DNA of 20,791 bases, taken from a virus. The notes beneath the pieces were generated by a model. It ran no database searches. It was not told the DNA's origin and worked only from the letters and a program-made list of their open reading frames with translations. Position numbers and translations under genes: made by a program. The stretch's first letter is position 1; each line of letters begins with the position of its first letter. This document shows positions 3,036 through 17,885 of this stretch, piece by piece. The stretch covers positions 1 to 20,791 of the IMG/VR virus record IMGVR_UViG_3300032331_003215. One strand, given 5' to 3'.

Positions 3036-3051
3036 ATTGAACGATTGAACG
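3036..3051 (+). repeat. Two tandem copies of ATTGAACG
   Basis: The eight bases ATTGAACG occur twice in direct succession in the 49-base gap between the PD-(D/E)XK-like gene and the annealase gene. This AT-rich patch contrasts with the surrounding GC-rich DNA. It could be a protein-binding site or part of a leader. I do not see a convincing pair of promoter boxes around it, so a role is only a guess. Confidence 0.35.
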
Positions 3052-3083
3052 TCAACTATCAACCAAAGCGAATAGGGGGAACC

Positions 3084-3788
3084 ATGAGTAAGGAAATCGC
3101 ACAGGCGCTCGCGGCGCCATTTGATCCGAAGGATCTCAAGCAGCGCCCAGGGCGCGCCGGGATGACTTTCACCTACGCAGACGCGCGAGCGGTTGCGCAG
3201 CGGCTCGACGACGCGCTCGGCGTCACCGGGTGGCAATTTGAAGTCGCGGTCGCGGACGTTCCGCGGTCGGTCGTCAAGGGGAGCCTGACGCTGGTCATCG
3301 AGGGAAAGACAACGATCCGGGAAGACTTCGGATATCCGAACAGTGGGGCAGACGAGGAGCCGCTCAAGAGCGCCGCCTCAGACGCCCTGCGCCGCTGCGC
3401 CGCCCAAATCGGGGTCGGACGCAGCCTCTACAGCCCCGAGCAGGGGCAGGGTGGGGTGAAGACGCCACTAGTGGGGGGAACGCCCCGCTCCGTGGCTCCT
3501 ACACCCCTCTCCGACGATTCCAGCGGGGGGGATCAGGCGATCGTTCGGGCGGCAATGGCGTTCGCCCAGGGGGACGCGGCGGGAGCCGGGAACTGTCCCG
3601 CACACGGGACCCCGTTCATTCTCCGCCCAGGCGGGGTATCAAAGACGACCGGGAAGCCCTACGCAGAGTTCTACGCCTGCCCAACAAAAGACGCGGCGGG
3701 TTTCTGCAAGGCGCGCCCAGCGGCGCCGCGCCCAAAGCCGGCACCGGCTCGACAGCCAGAAGAGACGCTGGAAGAATTACCGTTCTAA
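3084..3788 (+). CDS. Rad52/Rad22-family single-strand annealing protein with C-terminal zinc motif
   Basis: A 234-residue protein. Residues 1-120 resemble the Rad52/Rad22 single-strand annealing family: an FDPKDLKQRPGRAG start, FTYADARAVAQRLDDALG, a VTGWQFEV strand, GSLTLVI, and then the signature LKSAASDALRRCAAQIGVG. These proteins coat single-stranded DNA made by the phage exonuclease and anneal it to homologous DNA. A low-complexity linker leads to a C-terminal cysteine/histidine module with NCPAHGTPF, then FYACP and FCKARP, which resembles a zinc ribbon and could help bind DNA. The ATG at 3084 has an AGGGGGA ribosome site; the in-frame codon at 3045 has none. The exonuclease is two genes upstream. 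Confidence 0.85.
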   Translation: MSKEIAQALAAPFDPKDLKQRPGRAGMTFTYADARAVAQRLDDALGVTGWQFEVAVADVPRSVVKGSLTLVIEGKTTIREDFGYPNSGADEEPLKSAASDALRRCAAQIGVGRSLYSPEQGQGGVKTPLVGGTPRSVAPTPLSDDSSGGDQAIVRAAMAFAQGDAAGAGNCPAHGTPFILRPGGVSKTTGKPYAEFYACPTKDAAGFCKARPAAPRPKPAPARQPEETLEELPF

Positions 3789-3851: not shown

Positions 3852-4316
3852 ATGGCTCGACAGTTTCTCAAACTGACAAGCGACTGGGACGAAGACGAGA
3901 GGATCGCCATGCTCCCGGACTTGGCGCAACTGCTGTTTGTGAAGACGCTCAGCCGCGCCAAGCGGCAGCGCCCAGGGGGGTCGTTCGGAAGCGCCGCCCA
4001 CCTGAAGGCGCTGCTACCAGACCGGCTGCACCGGCACCTTCCCGCGCTCTTCCAGGCGGGGCTTCTCGCGGAAGAGCAGGGGCGGGTGGTGGTCGTCAAT
4101 TGGAGCCGATACCAAGTCGATCCAACGACATCCGAGCGCAGCGCCCGATTCCGCGCAACGCACACGCAACGGTCACGCGACGGTGAAGTCACGGGCGAAA
4201 CACAGCGGGAGACACGAGACACGAGACTAGAGACAAGAGACTTAACTAAAAAAGTAAGTAACCGGGAAGGGAAGCCCGAGAGCGCCTACGAAATCATTCT
4301 GGGGAGAGGGCGATGA
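3852..4316 (+). CDS. Phage replication-type protein with probable winged-helix N-terminus
   Basis: A 154-residue protein beginning MARQFLKLTSDWDEDERIAML. That layout (a short strand, then helices including LAQLLFVKTLSRAKR, AHLKALLPDRLHRHLPALFQAGLL and a VVVVNW wing) resembles the winged-helix N-terminal domain found in phage replisome-organiser or replication-initiation proteins. The second half is polar and charged, with a run of short RETRDTR-like repeats, probably disordered. It sits between the recombination genes and the dNMP kinase, which fits a replication job. A GAGGGGA ribosome site precedes the ATG at 3852, and the stop overlaps the next start as ATGA. No helicase or ATPase domain is present. 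The assignment is by fold-like pattern, not by clear motif. Confidence 0.55.
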   Translation: MARQFLKLTSDWDEDERIAMLPDLAQLLFVKTLSRAKRQRPGGSFGSAAHLKALLPDRLHRHLPALFQAGLLAEEQGRVVVVNWSRYQVDPTTSERSARFRATHTQRSRDGEVTGETQRETRDTRLETRDLTKKVSNREGKPESAYEIILGRGR

Positions 4317-4873
4317 AGAGGAACCTTGCGCTCATCGGACCACAGGGGGCAGGGAAGACGACGATCGCCTCGCTGCTTTGCGAACACTTCGGATACGCCC
4401 GCGTTGCCATCGCAGACCCGATCAAGGCGATCGCCAACGACGCGTACCCTGGGCTGGGGAAGGAAGACGAATACGATGTGCGGACGTACAGCGGAACGCG
4501 CCGGACAACGGGGCGAGAATTGCTCCAAGACATCGGCGCAAAACTTCGGGAAGTCGATCTCGACATCTGGCTGCGTCAATTCAGGCGCCGCTACCTTGAA
4601 GCGATTAAAGCCGGGCGGCTGGTCGTGATTGACGACGTCCGGCTGGAACACGAAGTCCGATACCTGCAGCACATCGATCCGTTGCTCAGCGTCGTCCGGA
4701 TTCACGCGGACGGCGCCACGAGAGCGGAGCGCCTCGGGCGCCTCACGGGAGCGGGGGACGTAACTGAGACCGGCTGGGGCATTGCGCCATACGATCTTAA
4801 CGTGGATACTTCAACGGGGACACCGGAAGACGCGGTCGCAACGATCGCTCGGTGGTTGGAAGGGGAACGATGA
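4313..4873 (+). CDS. Deoxynucleoside monophosphate kinase
   Basis: A 186-residue P-loop kinase. A Walker A motif GPQGAGKTT is at residues 9-17, followed by a FGYARVAIADPIKAIA segment typical of phage dNMP kinases (T4 gene 1 type), a GRELLQDIGAKLRE helix, and a VVIDDVRLEHEV strand that matches the family's conserved DDVR motif. The enzyme phosphorylates dNMPs to dNDPs for DNA synthesis, and in several phages also handles modified nucleotides. It begins inside the preceding stop and ends overlapping the next start, so the genes are probably translated in a coupled way. Because this phage also carries methyltransferases and a glycosyltransferase, a role with modified nucleotides is possible but not shown. 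Confidence 0.85.
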   Translation: MKRNLALIGPQGAGKTTIASLLCEHFGYARVAIADPIKAIANDAYPGLGKEDEYDVRTYSGTRRTTGRELLQDIGAKLREVDLDIWLRQFRRRYLEAIKAGRLVVIDDVRLEHEVRYLQHIDPLLSVVRIHADGATRAERLGRLTGAGDVTETGWGIAPYDLNVDTSTGTPEDAVATIARWLEGER

Positions 4874-8073: not shown

Positions 8074-8396
8074 CGTTCGCTCGACCATGCCTCGACTGCG
8101 GAACTCTGACGACCGGTGGAGACCGCTGCGCGCCACACAGCGCCGCGGCACAGGCACGCTGGAAGGCTGGCAAGCCGAACCCTTACAGCGACCCGGCGTG
8201 GCGCCGGCTCAGCGCAATGGTCCGATCAAAGCGCCCCTGGTGCGAAGCCTGCGGGACGACAAAGGATCTGACCGTTGACCATCTTGACCCGGTCAGCAAA
8301 GGCGGACCGCTGCTCGCACCGGAACACAGGCTGCGCGTCGTTTGCCGCGCTTGCCACGGCAGGATGACAAAACACAGAAAGGAAAGCACGCGATGA
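8070..8396 (+). CDS. HNH endonuclease (GTG start)
   Basis: A 108-residue HNH-type protein. It has an N-terminal cysteine module (CLDC, later CAPH), then a YSDPAWRRLSAMVR helix and the core: CEAC (Cys58, Cys61), DH at Asp70-His71, PVSKGG, then CRACH (Cys92, Cys95, His96). The usual Asn of the motif is replaced near residue 86 by His in PEHRLRVV. HNH proteins near a terminase often assist packaging, but here the terminase is about 4 kb downstream, so a homing or nicking role is also possible. The GTG at 8070 gives a GTGA overlap with the metallopeptidase stop. Confidence 0.8.
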   Translation: MTFARPCLDCGTLTTGGDRCAPHSAAAQARWKAGKPNPYSDPAWRRLSAMVRSKRPWCEACGTTKDLTVDHLDPVSKGGPLLAPEHRLRVVCRACHGRMTKHRKESTR

Positions 8397-9601
8397 GAAT
8401 CGGTTTCTACAGCAACTCGCCCCATATTCCAAGTGGTTACGGTCAACAGTGCGCACAAGTGATCGAACGAATGGCGAAAGACGGACACGAAGTCGCGGTG
8501 ATGAGTAATCACGGCGCAGCCGTTCAAATGATGTGGAACAACATCCCGATCTTCCCAGACGGGTTGCGCCAATACAGCGTTGACCTTTTTCCGCAGCAAC
8601 TTGCTGGCTGGGGCGGGATTAGCATCGGGCTGTTTGACGCCTGGGTTCTGGTTCCAGTTGCCGAGCAACTGCGCACGCTCAAACTGGCGTGGTGGGTTCC
8701 GATTGACCACGAACCGATTCCACCGCTCGTTGCTGAGTTCATCGCAAAGAGCGGATGCGTCGCCATTGCCATGAGTCAACACGGGGAGAAGTGCCTGCTT
8801 GACGTTGGTATTCCGCGCGAAAACGTTGTCTACATTCCGCATGCGATCGACACCCGCAACCTATTCGTCGACAAGGGGCGACAGGCGCGAAAGGATATGG
8901 GCATCCCAGAAGACGCACACCTGACGATCATGAACGCTGCCAATCGCGGAAAGCAGCCGATCCGCAAAGCGTTCGCTCAAAATCTTGAAGCGATCGTGCG
9001 GCACCTGAATAAGCATGAAGACGCCTACGCGTACATCCACACGGAGCCCCTGGGACTCAGCGATGGCATGAACTTGCCGCGCTATCTCGGGTACCTCAAA
9101 GCGCCGGCTGAACGCATCCGATGGGCGGAACCGATCGCTTACCGCAACGGCATCCCGACGGAACACTTGCCGCTCATCTATTCGGCAGGGGACGTGTTGC
9201 TCGCCACCTCGATGGGGGAAGGTTTCGGCGTTCCGACTATTGAGAGTCAGGCGTGCGGCACCCCAGTCATCGTGAGCGACTGGGCTGCGAGCGCGGAACT
9301 CTGCGGACCATACGGGACAAAGATCGGGGGACAAAGAGACTGGGACGAACACCAGGGAGCCTGGTGGATCAACCCAGACATTGATCAGATCGCCGCGGCG
9401 CTTGAGAATAACTATCACCAGACGAAGGCGGGGCTGGTTGACCGGACGGCAGTCCGACGCTTTGCGCTGAACTTTGACGCGGACGATGTCTACGAAGCGA
9501 AGTGGAAGCCGCTCATCGCCATGCTTCACCAGCGCCCAGCGCCGGGGCAGACAGCCCAGCCCAGCCGAGCGCAACGTCGCGCAGCGCAACGAAGGAAGTG
9601 A
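8393..9601 (+). CDS. GT4-type glycosyltransferase (GT-B fold)
   Basis: A 402-residue protein with GT-B architecture. The N-terminal domain starts MRIGFYSNSPHIPSGYGQQ, a glycine-rich opening typical of family 4 enzymes. The C-terminal domain carries GEGFGVPTIESQACGTPV, with the E-x7-E pair at Glu276 and Glu284 that contacts the nucleotide-sugar donor. The basic, proline-rich C-terminal tail (about residues 380-402) is probably disordered. The enzyme would transfer a sugar, but the acceptor cannot be read: modified DNA bases, a phage surface protein or a host envelope glycan are all possible. ATG 8393 overlaps the HNH stop. Confidence 0.85.
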   Translation: MRIGFYSNSPHIPSGYGQQCAQVIERMAKDGHEVAVMSNHGAAVQMMWNNIPIFPDGLRQYSVDLFPQQLAGWGGISIGLFDAWVLVPVAEQLRTLKLAWWVPIDHEPIPPLVAEFIAKSGCVAIAMSQHGEKCLLDVGIPRENVVYIPHAIDTRNLFVDKGRQARKDMGIPEDAHLTIMNAANRGKQPIRKAFAQNLEAIVRHLNKHEDAYAYIHTEPLGLSDGMNLPRYLGYLKAPAERIRWAEPIAYRNGIPTEHLPLIYSAGDVLLATSMGEGFGVPTIESQACGTPVIVSDWAASAELCGPYGTKIGGQRDWDEHQGAWWINPDIDQIAAALENNYHQTKAGLVDRTAVRRFALNFDADDVYEAKWKPLIAMLHQRPAPGQTAQPSRAQRRAAQRRK

Positions 9602-9723
9602 CAAACGGGGGGGCGGTCAAAATCATACGCACGAATAGTCGCCGGCTATCCAACGCCGAGCCCAGCGCACAGGCGGGGGGGTTTTTAGGTTTTGGTGTAA
9701 AATCCAAACAGGGGGGAAAATGA
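9598..9723 (+). CDS. Candidate 41-residue gene filling the gap before metK
   Basis: A GTG at 9598 overlaps the glycosyltransferase stop as GTGA, and this frame runs to TGA 9721-9723, which overlaps the metK start as ATGA. The 41-residue product (NGGAVKIIRTNSRRLSN, ending AGGFLGFGVKSK) is basic with a glycine/phenylalanine-rich tail. Overlaps on both sides are the standard arrangement here, which supports it. Against it: the GAAGGA just before the GTG is too close to be a good ribosome site, and the stretch is AT-richer than its neighbours and might instead be regulatory. Confidence 0.4.
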   Translation: MTNGGAVKIIRTNSRRLSNAEPSAQAGGFLGFGVKSKQGGK

Positions 9724-10835
9724 GCAGGAAGACACTGACCTCGGAATCCGTAACGGGCGGACACCCGGACAAACTCTGCGACCAAATCAGCGACGGCATC
9801 CTTGACCGGTTGCTGGCTGAAGACCCGAACGCACGCGTTGCGGTTGAAGCCGCAGCGAAAGACAACACGGTCTGGGTCTTCGGGGAAGTCGGAAGCGCCG
9901 CCGAGCCGCACGCCGAAGCGGTCGTGCGTGACGTCTTCCGGCGCAACGGGTACACAGACCCGGATAGCGGAACAACGGCAGACACGGTGGAAGTCCGAAC
10001 GACGATCAGCCGCCAAAGCCCAGACATCGCTCAAGGCGTCGACAACGCAGACCCGCTCGGAGCAGGGGCTGGCGATCAGGGGCTCATGATTGGATACGCA
10101 ACGAAGGAAGCGCTTGGGTACATGCCGCTGCCGCTTTACCTTTCCAGGCAACTCACAAACGCGCTGACGCGCGAACGGGAGACCGGGCGGCTGCCGTGGT
10201 TGCGACCGGACGGGAAGGCACAAGTCAGCGTCCGATACGAAGACGGAGAGCCCGAGGAAATTACCGCGGTTGTCATCTCGGCGCAACACGCCTCGGACAT
10301 TGGCATTGACGAAGTCCGCGCAGCGCTTTCAGAAATTGCCAACAGCGTGCTGCCGAACTATTACCTCACCAATGAAACAGCCTTCCACTTCAATCCGACA
10401 GGGCGGTTCGTCATTGGCGGACCGGCTGCTGACTCGGGGCTGACCGGGAGAAAGATCATCGTGGACACCTACGGCGGCGCAGCGCGCCACGGCGGTGGAG
10501 CCTTCAGCGGAAAAGACCCGAGTAAAGTTGACCGCACTGGGGCATACGCCGCGCGCTGGCTTGCGAAAAGCATCGTCGCATCGGGACACGCAAAGCGCGC
10601 GGAAGTGGAACTTGCCTACGCGATCGGAGTGGCAGACCCCGTGGCGGTTAACGTCGACACGTTCGGAGAGGGAGACGACCGCGCGCTTGCCGCGCATTTT
10701 GACGACACCATTGACCTGCGCCCTGGCGCAATCATTGAGCGGCTAGGATTAAAGCGAGTCAAGTACCAGCGATGCGCGCGCACCGGACACTTCGGAGACC
10801 CCGAACTGCCGTGGGAAGAGGCGCTCGAGATTTAG
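9720..10835 (+). CDS. metK: S-adenosylmethionine synthetase
   Basis: A complete 371-residue methionine adenosyltransferase that makes SAM from methionine and ATP. The family's three repeated domains are visible. GGHPDK is at residues 13-18 (His15, Asp17), GAGAGDQG holds Asp119, Lys166 lies in DGKAQV, DSGLTGRK carries Asp238, Arg244 and Lys245, and FSGKDPSKVDR gives Lys265, Lys269 and Asp271. It is slightly shorter than typical bacterial enzymes (about 380-400). ACAGGGGGGAAA before the ATG is a strong ribosome site. In a phage it would raise the SAM supply, probably for the DNA methyltransferases at 298-1548 and 10845-12254. Nothing suggests decay. Confidence 0.95.
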   Translation: MSRKTLTSESVTGGHPDKLCDQISDGILDRLLAEDPNARVAVEAAAKDNTVWVFGEVGSAAEPHAEAVVRDVFRRNGYTDPDSGTTADTVEVRTTISRQSPDIAQGVDNADPLGAGAGDQGLMIGYATKEALGYMPLPLYLSRQLTNALTRERETGRLPWLRPDGKAQVSVRYEDGEPEEITAVVISAQHASDIGIDEVRAALSEIANSVLPNYYLTNETAFHFNPTGRFVIGGPAADSGLTGRKIIVDTYGGAARHGGGAFSGKDPSKVDRTGAYAARWLAKSIVASGHAKRAEVELAYAIGVADPVAVNVDTFGEGDDRALAAHFDDTIDLRPGAIIERLGLKRVKYQRCARTGHFGDPELPWEEALEI

Positions 10836-10844
10836 GGGGACACG

Positions 10845-12254
10845 ATGGCAAAGACAGAATGGCGCAATAGGATTACGAAAAGCGCGGAAGTCGCACCAGA
10901 GACGATCCTGCCAAACCCAGAGAATTACAGGGAACACCCGGACAGGCAACAGCGGCTCATGAGCGGGGCGCTCAACGAACTCGGATGGGTGCAGCCGGTG
11001 ATTGTTAACAGCCGAAGCGGAAGACTTATTGACGGACACATGCGCGTTGCGCTCGCGATCAGGCGCGCAGAGAAGACTGTGCCGGTGAACTACGTTGACC
11101 TCAGCGAAGAGGAAGAGCGCGTCGCGCTTGCAACGATTGATCCGCTGGGCGAACTTGCGCGCCAAAACGACAACGACCTGCGCTCGCTGCTTGCGCAAGT
11201 TTCAGTCAAAGATCGGGACCTGAAAGACCTACTCAGCGAACTCGACAAAGACGCAGGCGGGGATCAAGACTCCAGCGAAGAGACGCGCGAGACGCTGATG
11301 GCAAAAAATCGCGTTGACGAACTGCGTGCAAAGTGGAAGGTGAAGGCGGGCGACGTTTGGCAGGCTGGAACGCACCGGATCGGTTGCCTTGACGCAACAA
11401 ACCCGAAAGCGGTCGCCAAACTGATGGGCGCAAAAAAGGCGCACCTGGTCTTCACAGACCCGCCATACGGCGTGGCATACCAGGCAAGCGGACATGAGGA
11501 AATCAAAAACGACGCGCTGACTGGGGACGCACTTGTGGACTTTCTCGTCAAGTCTTTCAAAAACATGGAAGCCCACTCTTACGATGACGCAGGCTTCTAC
11601 ATTTGGCACGCCACGAGCAGCCGCGACGAATTTACACACGCGCTCAAGCGCGCCGGACTGCTTGAAAAGCAGTACCTCATCTGGGCAAAGCCGCAGCCCA
11701 CGCTCGGACACGCGGACTACCAACAGGCACATGAACCGTGCTTCTACGCGAGTAAAGCGGGACACCAGCCGCGCTGGTTCGGCGGGCGAGACAAAAACAC
11801 GGTCTGGGTTATTGCGCAGGCAGACGCAGAAAGGGCAAGCGCAACACTCACCGGCGGATTGATGATCAGCGCCGGAGACCGCCGCCTCTGGCTCAGCGAC
11901 AAATCGCCAAAGGGGAAAAAACTGCGCACCTTCAGGATTGAGCCTGGCGAGCGCCTGGAACTCAATGAACCGGGGGACGAAAGCGACATTTGGATTGTCG
12001 GAAGGGATACGACAAAGCCCTACCACCCCACGCAAAAACCCGTTGAACTCGCAGCGCGGGCGATCCGCAACTCCACGGAGCCAGGCGACATTGTGGTCGA
12101 CCTTTTCCTCGGGAGCGGTTCCACCGCGGTTGCTGCAGAGCGCACAGGGCGAACTTGCTACGGGACAGACTACGACGCAGGGTACGTCGCAGTTATTCTC
12201 GAGCGCCTAAGCGAAGAGGGGCTGAAGCCTGAGCGCATCAACGAGAGCGCGTAG
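10845..12254 (+). CDS. ParB-like domain fused to DNA methyltransferase
   Basis: A 469-residue two-part protein. Residues about 15-105 are a ParB/Srx-like domain (PNPENYREHPDRQ, GWVQPVIVN, LIDGHMRVALAI). Residues about 165-460 are a DNA amino-methyltransferase with TDPPYGVAY (Asp205-Pro-Pro-Tyr208), then HPTQKPVELAARAI and the SAM-binding VVDLFLGSGSTAV near residue 415. DPPY before the SAM motif is the beta-class order. It should methylate adenine N6 or cytosine N4. Such fusions are common in phages and may protect against restriction or regulate packaging. It follows metK by nine bases, so SAM supply and use are adjacent. The target sequence is unknown. Confidence 0.9.
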   Translation: MAKTEWRNRITKSAEVAPETILPNPENYREHPDRQQRLMSGALNELGWVQPVIVNSRSGRLIDGHMRVALAIRRAEKTVPVNYVDLSEEEERVALATIDPLGELARQNDNDLRSLLAQVSVKDRDLKDLLSELDKDAGGDQDSSEETRETLMAKNRVDELRAKWKVKAGDVWQAGTHRIGCLDATNPKAVAKLMGAKKAHLVFTDPPYGVAYQASGHEEIKNDALTGDALVDFLVKSFKNMEAHSYDDAGFYIWHATSSRDEFTHALKRAGLLEKQYLIWAKPQPTLGHADYQQAHEPCFYASKAGHQPRWFGGRDKNTVWVIAQADAERASATLTGGLMISAGDRRLWLSDKSPKGKKLRTFRIEPGERLELNEPGDESDIWIVGRDTTKPYHPTQKPVELAARAIRNSTEPGDIVVDLFLGSGSTAVAAERTGRTCYGTDYDAGYVAVILERLSEEGLKPERINESA

Positions 12255-14205: not shown

Positions 14206-15411
14206 ATGGGAATCCTTGATCGCATTCTCGGGCGCGAACAGACAGAGCAGCGCGCCATCGGCGGCGGCTGGGGTAACGACTGGTGGCGCGATGGCACCAA
14301 CAAGTACGCAGGCGTTGCGATCAACCAGGACAACGCGCTCGACATTACAGCGGTCTACGCGGCAGTAAAACTATACGCAGACACAGTTGCGTCGCTTCCG
14401 TGGGGCGCATATATCCGATCAAGCGGAAGCCGCAACCCAGTGCAGCGACCACGATGGATGGATCAACCGATCCCGGCGAATCCTAACTTCACAGGCTTTG
14501 ACTTCCGACATCGCATCGTGACCAGTTTGCTATTAGATGGCAATACCTTCATTCTGACTATGCGCGATAACGCGGGAGCAGTCGTGGAGTGCAGGGTGCT
14601 TGACCCGCGCAAAGTTGAAATCCGCGTGCTGCCAGACGGCACGCCCGAGTACCACATCAAGAGTGATCAGGGGACAGGGGTCTTCGGAACAGACGACATT
14701 GTTCACATTACGCTGCAGGGCGGGATCACGGAAAACTTGCGCGGGCTTTCGCCCATTGAGCGCCACCGCGTCACGCTTGGACTGGCAGCCGCAACGCAAC
14801 TCTACGGCGCCAAGTTCTACGAGCAGGGTGCAGCCCCCAGTGGCATCATCAAAGTTGCTGGCGAACTCAACGCAGACCAGGCGGAGAATCTCCGCGCTGC
14901 GTTCGGACGCAAGCACGAAGGCGTGGACAAGATGCACAGAGTCGCAGTCCTTACCGGCGGCGCAGACTTCACTTCGCTCAGCGCAAAGATCACAGACCTC
15001 GCGCTGATTGAAACCATGCAATGGGGGACAGAGAGCATCGCGCGAATCTACGGCGTCCCGCTGCACCTTCTGCAGTACCCGGGCGGCAACACGTCATATT
15101 CTAGCGTCGAAGTGATCAGCATTGAATGGTTGCGCCTCGGACTAGGACCACTCATCGCGCGCATTGAAGCCGCGCTCCAGCGCTTGGTCGTGGGGAATAC
15201 AACCTTCATCAAGTTCAACCTCGATGGTTTACTCCGCCCTACAACCAAAGAGCGCTACGACGCATATCAAGTAGCATTGAATAATGGCTGGCTTTCCGTA
15301 AATGAGATCAGACAACTTGAAGACCGCGCGCCGATTGGCGCAGGCGGAGACGAATTCCGACAGCCGCTCAACATCGGCGTGATCGGGGATAGCACAGGGA
15401 GTCAAGGCTGA
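14206..15411 (+). CDS. HK97-type portal protein
   Basis: A 401-residue portal protein, about the usual size for HK97-type portals. Recognisable parts are an early ALDITAVYAAVKLYADTVASLP helix, the FDFRHRIVTSLLLDGNTFIL region, a conserved stem/crown segment (GLSPIERHRVTLGLAAATQLYGAKFYEQGA), AFGRKHEGVDKMHRVAVL and a late IARIYGVPLHLL with SVEVISIEWLRLGLGPL. It would form the dodecameric ring through which DNA enters the head. AGGGAGACGA precedes the ATG, ten bases after the terminase stop. Its stop shares the first base of the next ATG. Confidence 0.93.
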   Translation: MGILDRILGREQTEQRAIGGGWGNDWWRDGTNKYAGVAINQDNALDITAVYAAVKLYADTVASLPWGAYIRSSGSRNPVQRPRWMDQPIPANPNFTGFDFRHRIVTSLLLDGNTFILTMRDNAGAVVECRVLDPRKVEIRVLPDGTPEYHIKSDQGTGVFGTDDIVHITLQGGITENLRGLSPIERHRVTLGLAAATQLYGAKFYEQGAAPSGIIKVAGELNADQAENLRAAFGRKHEGVDKMHRVAVLTGGADFTSLSAKITDLALIETMQWGTESIARIYGVPLHLLQYPGGNTSYSSVEVISIEWLRLGLGPLIARIEAALQRLVVGNTTFIKFNLDGLLRPTTKERYDAYQVALNNGWLSVNEIRQLEDRAPIGAGGDEFRQPLNIGVIGDSTGSQG

Positions 15412-16628
15412 TGTACGAAATCATTGACATTGATGGCACGCTGACGACGAGCGGAGACACGCCGCGCGCGGAACTCGTTCAGTACGTCAAGGAAGACACC
15501 GCCCAGGAAGGCGTCAAGTTCATCATCGTCTCCGCGCGCCCGGTTGCGCGCCTTGAAGAGACAAAGGCGTGGCTTGCTGAAAATGACATTCCATATGACC
15601 AAATCCATCTAAACGACTTTGATGGAGCCGGGAAGGGACCGAACGTCGGACTTGCCTTCAAGGAAGCCAAGTTCAAGGCGCTGATTGAGCAGTACGGAAT
15701 TGCCAGCGGGTCCAACCCTGACGGTATTGACTACGTCATCGACAACGACCCGGAAGTCATCGCCATCGCAAAGAGCCTCGGGCTTGACGCCCACACACCG
15801 CAACAGCACCTACAAGACGAGGGGCATCCAGAGATTGGCGGAACCGAAGCGGAAGGAAGCGACAAACTAGACGCGAATGGCGCAACGCCACCAATTCGCA
15901 GCGCTGGAAAGGAACTTGAGACCCGCGCAACGGCAATCGGTGACTTCACCGTCACCGAGACGTCGGACGGTCAGCGCACCTTCACTGGGTACGCTGCGCT
16001 CTTTGATTCCCCGAGCGCTGGGCTTCCGTTCCGCGAAGTCATCAAGGCGGGCGCCTTCAAGCGCAGCCTGACGCGCGCCACGGCGGGACAGAAAATCGTC
16101 TCGTTCCTCTTCGGGCATGATGAGACCCGAGCGCTTGCGACAACCGCCAGCGGGCGCCTGCGTTTGACGGAAGACGCAAAGGGGCTGCGCGTTGAAGCGA
16201 AACTTGACCCGACAGACCCGGACGCCGCGAAGGTGATCTCCATGCTCACGCACGAGAGCGCCGCCGCCGGCATGTCATTCGGGTTCACGGTGCCAAAGGG
16301 CGGCGATGCCTGGAGCGGCGAAGAGCGCACGCTCAGCGAAGTCAACCTCATCGAAGCATCCATCCTCAGCCCCGGACAGCGCGCAGCCTACCCTGCGACG
16401 ACCGGGCTCGCGGCGGTCCGAAAGATTGCCGCACCGCGCATCGGCGTTGACGCCGATCGCCTTATTTCTACGCTCGAATCCGTCAAGGCGGGAAAGGAAC
16501 TCTCCGACGACGAAGTGGAAGTCCTCGACACCGTTCGCACCCGGCTCGCGCCGAAGCGAATGGCGACAGACCCTACGATCGCCGCTGCGAAACTCCTGCT
16601 CGCAAAGATGGAAGACGAGACGGTCTAG
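15411..16628 (+). CDS. HAD-phosphatase domain fused to HK97-type prohead protease
   Basis: A 405-residue protein with two parts. Residues 1-130 have the HAD-superfamily pattern: IIDIDGTL (Asp6, Asp8), IIVSAR (Ser41), a lysine-rich helix around residues 84-90, and YVIDNDPE (Asp111, Asp113). This resembles the phosphatase side of polynucleotide kinase-phosphatases. A polar linker (about 135-170) leads to a U35-type prohead protease: TFTGYAALFD, then FGHDETRALA (His236), AAAGMSFGF (Ser289) and VNLIEASILS (Glu315), which fit the catalytic triad. The protease should cut capsid scaffold and delta domains. The linker is a likely place for self-cleavage. Position between portal and capsid is exactly as expected. 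The phosphatase role in a head protein is unknown. Confidence 0.88.
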   Translation: MYEIIDIDGTLTTSGDTPRAELVQYVKEDTAQEGVKFIIVSARPVARLEETKAWLAENDIPYDQIHLNDFDGAGKGPNVGLAFKEAKFKALIEQYGIASGSNPDGIDYVIDNDPEVIAIAKSLGLDAHTPQQHLQDEGHPEIGGTEAEGSDKLDANGATPPIRSAGKELETRATAIGDFTVTETSDGQRTFTGYAALFDSPSAGLPFREVIKAGAFKRSLTRATAGQKIVSFLFGHDETRALATTASGRLRLTEDAKGLRVEAKLDPTDPDAAKVISMLTHESAAAGMSFGFTVPKGGDAWSGEERTLSEVNLIEASILSPGQRAAYPATTGLAAVRKIAAPRIGVDADRLISTLESVKAGKELSDDEVEVLDTVRTRLAPKRMATDPTIAAAKLLLAKMEDETV

Positions 16629-16733: not shown

Positions 16734-17885
16734 ATGGCAGACCTTAAGCATCTGGCTGAGAAGCGCGCACGCCTTCTCACCGAGGCGAGTGACCTCGTCA
16801 GCGCAACCGCCGAGAAGGGCGACGCTCTTACCGGCGAGTCGCAGGCTCGCTTTGAGTCCCTCACCAATGAGGCGGCTTCAATTGCCGCCGCGATCCGCTC
16901 CGAGCGTGACGCAGCCGAGGCTCGCTCCGCTGCTGACGCAGTGCGCGCTGAGTACGCCGCTGCCGTTGCTCCGTCGACCTCGGTCGATTCGGACGACGCC
17001 GCTGAACTTCGCCGCCTCGCACGCGATGGTGGTGAGCGCAACTTTGAGTACCGCGATGTCACGAAGGCAACCGGTCTCGGAAACCCGGTGTCGGTCGCTG
17101 GGCTTGTCAACGTCATTGCCGGTCAGGTGAACCCTTTCCTCAATCCAGACGTTGTCGAAATCATTCGCGCCTCGACGGGCAATAACGTGCTTCTGCCTCG
17201 CGTGACTGCGCTTGGCACCGCCGGCTCGGTCTCCGAAGCCGGACAGATCAACGAATCGGACGGCACGCTGTCCAATCTTTCGTTGACGCCTGTGAAGTAC
17301 GCAACGCTGCTCCAGATTTCCAGCGAACTCATCAATGACGCTGCATTCGACATCTCCAACTTCGTGGCGGAGAAGGCGGGGCAGGAAGTCGGCATCGCGC
17401 ATGGCGCCTTCGCAGGCACCGCGGTTGCGGCGCAGGCTGGCACTGGCGTCACCGGCGCAACGACGGTCTACGCACCGACGTATGCAAATCTCGTTGACTT
17501 GATCTATTCGGTCAAGCAGCAGTATCGCCGCGCACCGAAGCGCGGGTTCCTTGCGAATGACGCGACAATTGGCGGCATCATCAAGTTGCTTGACGATCAG
17601 AAGCGTCCGATCTTTATCCCGGGCGACCTTTCTAAGCCGGACACCGTTCTCGGTTTCCCGGCTTACTCGGCGCCACTTGCGGACACCGCTGCAAACGCGC
17701 TCAGCGTTCTCTTCGGTGATCTTTCCGCGATCAAGACCGTCCTGGTTGGCGGCGTGGACATCGCTTCTAGCGTTGACTTCGCCTTCAACTACGGGCTCGT
17801 CACGTACCGCATCCAGGTGCGCGGCGCGACCGGTCTCATCGAGCAGACCGCGGTCAAGGCGTTCAAGGGCGGCGCGGCTTCCTAA
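16734..17885 (+). CDS. Major capsid protein, HK97 gp5-like
   Basis: A 383-residue capsid protein. Residues 1-80 are a charged coiled-coil (KRARLLTEASDLVSATAEKGDALTG and after), the typical delta/scaffold domain removed by the prohead protease. The rest matches the HK97 fold: a GLVNVIAGQVNPFLNP segment, a LLPRVTALGTAGSVSE strand set, SNLSLTPVKYATLLQISSELI, FLANDATIGGIIKLLDDQ, and GFPAYSAPL near the C-terminus with IQVRGATGLIEQTAVKAF at the end. The gene uses a visibly different codon mix (more CGT, GCT and GTC-type codons) than its neighbours, as expected for high expression. It follows the prohead protease, which should cut it. Confidence 0.93.
   Translation: MADLKHLAEKRARLLTEASDLVSATAEKGDALTGESQARFESLTNEAASIAAAIRSERDAAEARSAADAVRAEYAAAVAPSTSVDSDDAAELRRLARDGGERNFEYRDVTKATGLGNPVSVAGLVNVIAGQVNPFLNPDVVEIIRASTGNNVLLPRVTALGTAGSVSEAGQINESDGTLSNLSLTPVKYATLLQISSELINDAAFDISNFVAEKAGQEVGIAHGAFAGTAVAAQAGTGVTGATTVYAPTYANLVDLIYSVKQQYRRAPKRGFLANDATIGGIIKLLDDQKRPIFIPGDLSKPDTVLGFPAYSAPLADTAANALSVLFGDLSAIKTVLVGGVDIASSVDFAFNYGLVTYRIQVRGATGLIEQTAVKAFKGGAAS

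Follow-up and report, generated by a model that had tools for sequence, protein, structure and literature searches.

In the window, a 20,791-nucleotide stretch of virus DNA (IMG/VR record IMGVR_UViG_3300032331_003215), our results support the fusion of a predicted and probably active HAD phosphatase to a prohead protease. The fusion is real and widespread, and it is unreported in the open-access literature searched, in which no paper on a HAD-protease fusion was found. The combination and the swapping of modules that accompanies it are new; the component parts are already known. The fused open reading frame, its coordinates and every residue named in the original prediction (D6, D8, S41, K84/K87, D111, D113, H236 and S289) were verified, and the features concerned are as follows.

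14206..15411, plus strand: portal protein (Phage_portal, E 2.7e-81).
15411..16628, plus strand: HAD phosphatase-prohead protease fusion gene, 405 amino acids; its own ATG overlaps the portal TGA by one base.
15411..15815, plus strand: HAD domain, approximately residues 1-135 (PHROG 415/505, T4 Pnkp-phosphatase-like predicted fold, conservation in 85 relatives).
Within the HAD domain of 15411..15815, plus strand: D6, D8, S41, R43, K84, K87, D111 and D113, the listed catalytic-motif residues.
15834..15935, plus strand: polar, disordered linker, residues 142-175 (pLDDT under 50), with no in-frame start codon.
15918..15926, plus strand: E170-T-R172 junction motif, putative self-cleavage point R172/A173 (36 of the 37 fused proteins have E-x-R).
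15963..16403, plus strand: Peptidase_S78 prohead protease domain, residues 185-331, with His236 and Ser289 (Pfam/NCBIfam, T4 gp21 fold match).
16734..17885, plus strand: HK97-fold major capsid protein, MCP (Phage_capsid, E 6.6e-33); its N-terminal scaffold part ends at FEYR107/D108 according to the phiC31 alignment.

The N-terminal domain carries the motifs expected of a HAD phosphatase, and these are conserved among 85 distinct sequences. Motif I (DxDGT) occurs as D6-I-D8-G-T, in which D6 is kept in 84 of the 85 sequences and D8 in all of them. The serine of motif II (S41, 85/85) lies in the strand 36-44, and the lysine of motif III is represented by K84 and K87 (both 85/85) on the helix 77-95. 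The acidic pair of motif IV consists of D111, which is present throughout (85/85), and D113, which is found in 78 sequences and replaced by serine in 7; R43 is also invariant. Among the PHROGs, the N terminus matched the polynucleotide-kinase families PHROG 415 (E 2e-9) and PHROG 505 (E 9e-6). The Pfam HAD models were borderline at best and fell just or well below their cut-offs; Hydrolase_3 scored 20.2 bits where 20.9 was required. A PDB search with the single sequence gave no useful match, and a profile search matched 1xpj and Pnkp1 weakly. In an AlphaFold model of the fusion built from 37 relatives, the pLDDT is approximately 95 for the HAD domain, below 50 for residues 142-175 and approximately 90 for the protease core. 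When the HAD model was compared with the PDB using VIA-align, the best match was the phosphatase domain of T4 Pnkp (1rrc/5uj0; Z 16.2, rmsd 1.9-2.0 over 117-118 residues), followed by Pnkp1 (Z 15.6) and then by the Nir2 and lipin phosphatases (Z 13-15). Because the predicted fold is HAD-like, the possibility that the N-terminal half would prove unlike HAD on structure prediction is ruled out.

The kinship to Pnkp extends to individual residues. In the sequence alignment, D6, D8, R43, K84 and D111 are the equivalents of T4 D165, D167, R213, K258 and D277. However, the domain differs from T4 Pnkp in that it is fused to a protease and lacks the 5′-kinase half, since HAD occupies the N terminus from residue 1 and the protease comes next, and in that T4 residues R176, D254 and D278 have no equivalents: according to the alignment, the loop of the first is absent, and the other two are replaced by G80 and N112, the latter position being D in 8 of the 85 sequences. 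We take these three residues to be required for the 3′-phosphatase activity of T4 Pnkp, and their absence means that the substrate of the HAD domain cannot be deduced. The earlier suggestion of a nucleic-acid phosphatase is upheld insofar as the domain is akin to Pnkp in fold and sequence, and no further, and the three residues are lacking. As aligned and modelled, the domain is like a Pnkp phosphatase without deserving that name, and nucleic-acid ends are, by kinship, our best guess for its substrate.

The C-terminal half scores above the cut-offs of both Pfam Peptidase_S78 (PF04586, residues 185-331; 94.9 bits, cut-off 21, E 7e-27) and the NCBIfam proheadase model (TIGR01543; 78.7 bits, cut-off 59, E 4.5e-22). 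The fold of the modelled protease matched T4 gp21 (VIA-align, Z 11.1), and the active-site residues H236 and S289 are invariant in the A3 alignment. With the S78 profiles above their cut-offs and the linker disordered, the prediction of a complete protease with His236 and Ser289 after a polar linker holds, and each half of the fusion is confirmed by domain search and predicted structure. The HK97-type prohead protease (Peptidase_S78, TIGR01543; PHROG 80) has the same domain, the same His and Ser residues and the same location, between the portal and major capsid genes. It differs in having no HAD domain, and the stand-alone proteases of Labrenzia phage V1 and Rhizobium phage RHph_Y3_1 begin at the protease itself.

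Scans of IMG/VR identified many contigs with the same fusion, which amount to 85 distinct HAD-protease fusions on environmental virus contigs; a sequencing artefact joining two genes is thereby ruled out. In the fetched contigs, every complete HAD open reading frame is joined to a protease, and no stand-alone HAD gene was found apart from fragments at contig ends and a single split frame (L099). Median dN/dS values of 0.34 (HAD domain) and 0.20 (protease), which are rough because they come from a simple counting method and often divergent pairs, indicate purifying selection on both. A start-codon scan of the window open reading frame found no in-frame ATG, GTG or TTG from residue 2 to residue 251. 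For the window, this rules out that the protease is translated separately, and each protease molecule there comes with HAD; in relatives, unlike the window, in-frame start codons do occur in that region and may allow separate translation. When 50,697 records of isolated phages were searched with tblastn, the fusion was not seen among the matches listed, in which the HAD matches were nearly all to polynucleotide kinases. In prokaryote genomes, only two matches to the fusion were obtained, both weak and partial. An apparently fused homologue has already been deposited in UniProt (A0A6J5R419, "Prohead protease", uncultured Caudovirales phage; 501 amino acids), with 48% identity to the whole model over 507 columns of structural alignment. 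It is named as a protease only and, judged from its length, probably has an extra module of approximately 110 amino acids.

The window has no DNA-level similarity to known phages. By protease and terminase, the nearest isolated phage is phiPsal1, which infects the actinobacterium Pontimonas, so an actinobacterial host is likely for the window as well. Elsewhere in the window, a complete S-adenosylmethionine synthetase with all three Pfam domains (9720-10835) adjoins a DNA methylase gene (10845-12254), and a C5-cytosine methylase is encoded at 211-1548; the phage may make its methyl donor itself. A group 1 glycosyltransferase (8342-9601) lies between the replication/recombination genes and the AdoMet synthetase, and phiPsal1 also has a glycosyltransferase gene, directly after its capsid gene. 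The window further encodes a deoxynucleotide monophosphate kinase-like P-loop protein (4313-4873), a Rad52-like annealing protein (3045-3788) and a YqaJ exonuclease (1488-2504).

The HAD domain is one of several modules found at the N terminus of these proteases. In most relatives, another module, of approximately 110 amino acids, lies between HAD and the protease, and in one of them (L011:2747-4741) this "VPxYI...RHxxDW...PGPGAVA" module is present twice, the second copy having diverged. A model of a relative with this module (L006) gave the same structural matches for HAD and protease as the window model; among the matches listed, which HAD dominated, there was no known fold for the module. 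Other relatives have, instead of HAD, a short "ITD...GWATVKEDGEVIGCH" module and a cysteine-rich stretch that is weakly HIPIP-like. The long prohead protease of phiPsal1 has the same module order as these non-HAD relatives, with GCH and cysteine-rich modules in place of HAD. Two proteases (L054:2718-4664 and L075:2831-4762) have four N-terminal parts: a GCH module, a DUF5824-like part, a cysteine-rich HIPIP-like part and the module of approximately 110 amino acids. In a tree of the protease domain, in which the L100 and phiPsal1 tips are very long and of unsure placement, well-supported branches require the N-terminal type to have changed at least 10 times. In several pairs of relatives, moreover, the N-terminal module is the sole difference. 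L036, which has HAD, and L035, which does not, are 90% identical across 3.2 kb of upstream DNA and 96% identical across 1.1 kb of downstream DNA, whereas the HAD stretch between them has no alignable DNA and an unrelated module stands in its place. This clean replacement of a cassette and the changes on the tree indicate that the protease N terminus is a site of exchange.

The linker ends close to a motif that recurs in the capsid protein. E-x-R occupies positions 170-172 in 36 of 37 fused proteins (ETR172 in the window) and closes the scaffold part of the MCP in 92 of 93 rows (EYR107 in the window). The phiC31 record marks the mature capsid protein, with a cut at EKR/DGTKAGNP that aligns with EYR107/DVTKATGLGNP of the window, and both borders are also E-x-R in phiPsal1, Labrenzia V1 and Rhizobium RHph_Y3_1. 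The motif shared by the linker junction and the MCP cleavage point suggests a cut between R172 and A173. However, E-x-R is likewise conserved at protease positions 238-240 and MCP positions 62-64, two places at which cleavage is either unexpected or unknown, and it occurs near the N termini of the stand-alone proteases; therefore, the motif may be structural. From these alignments, self-cleavage at R172/A173 that frees the HAD domain is plausible.

The explanation that we prefer, with our confidence evenly divided, is that the HAD domain is an exchangeable, probably active and Mg-dependent cargo that enters the prohead, is freed at ETR172 and is either ejected or active in the head. HK97-type proteases are built into the prohead, with approximately 60 copies in HK97 and approximately 90 in D3 (PMC12749128), and the HAD domain would enter because the protease itself is taken in. 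The activated protease would then cleave behind ETR172, recognising E-x-R just as at EYR107 of the capsid protein, and the freed, folded domain of approximately 15 kDa would stay in the head, from which it might be ejected with the DNA or in which it might act; its target would be the end of a nucleic acid or a substrate resembling a nucleotide. What the computations provide is one polypeptide with both catalytic sets intact, a flexible linker, a protease that lacks a start of its own and repeated swaps of the N-terminal module, and from these we infer the encapsidation, the release and the substrate. That the phosphatase is delivered in a timed manner, as the original prediction proposed, is a hypothesis, and any action against host nucleases would be speculative.

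Proteases of the HK97 type usually end up cut into small fragments by their own activity, and the HAD domain could be destroyed as well, which is a point against its delivery as cargo. The same established behaviour would fit a rather unlikely alternative in which the domain acts in the cytoplasm late in infection, the fusion merely couples its expression or amount to head assembly, and the domain is lost at maturation; expression would indeed be late, given the fixed position of the open reading frame between the portal and capsid genes. Yet a plain adjacent gene would suffice for this purpose, with no need to join the enzyme to the protease, and the fetched relatives never have HAD alone and exchange the module as a cassette. 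We also consider it unlikely that the N-terminal modules (HAD, the GCH/cysteine module and the repeat module of approximately 110 amino acids) serve head assembly as spacers, targeting elements or regulators that keep the protease inactive or bind scaffold, with the chemistry of HAD being secondary. Although the occurrence of several unrelated modules at one position fits a need for bulk over chemistry, the catalytic residues of HAD are essentially invariant in 85 sequences, which would be needless for a mere spacer, and the proteases of many phages have no such N-terminal part. It is very improbable that HAD is a binding domain that has kept its fold and lost its reaction and that holds, for example, nucleic acid or phosphate. 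The absence of the Pnkp substrate residues R176, D254 and D278 and the serine at position 113 in 7 of the 85 sequences would agree with such a loss, but the nucleophile D6 is kept in 84 of 85 sequences, and the acid/base D8, S41, K84 and D111 are kept in all 85.

An enzyme-like N-terminal domain on a head maturation protease is also found in isolated phages, namely BFK20, phi673 and phi674 (PHROG 9644). There, the N-terminal domain is not HAD but a P-loop domain that is kinase- or small-terminase-like. The protease gp5 of corynephage BFK20 (L170:2207-3259) begins with such a domain (GPPCAGKSS), on which its record is silent, and the domain resembles proteins that actinophage annotations call polynucleotide kinase or small terminase subunit (PHROG 4581, E 2e-15); according to the record, gp5 was detected among the structural proteins. 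A broader parallel is offered by phage polyvalent proteins and MuF-fused effectors, enzymes carried into the head on structural proteins (PMC5512222). In sequence and predicted structure, the window fusion likewise places an enzyme domain on a head protein. The fusion is absent from the passages of that paper that were consulted, and the term "prohead protease" appears there in the reference list only.

These cases point to a wider and tentative possibility, which we would sooner doubt than accept: the head protease may be a general carrier of exchangeable N-terminal enzymes that go into the prohead together with it and, once freed by its own E-x-R cut, are delivered with the genome. Its cargo would include the HAD phosphatase, the P-loop kinase-like domain and the cysteine-rich modules, with roles such as mending nucleic-acid ends or countering host nuclease defences. 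Scaffold proteases have so far been regarded as disposable tools of assembly. The Pnkp-phosphatase-like domain of the window lineage and the Pnk-kinase/terminase-like domain of BFK20 suggest that reactions on nucleic-acid ends take place in the head or close to it. If this reading is true, swappable enzymes on the protease would represent a packaging route for phage effectors that has been hidden by the annotation "prohead protease".
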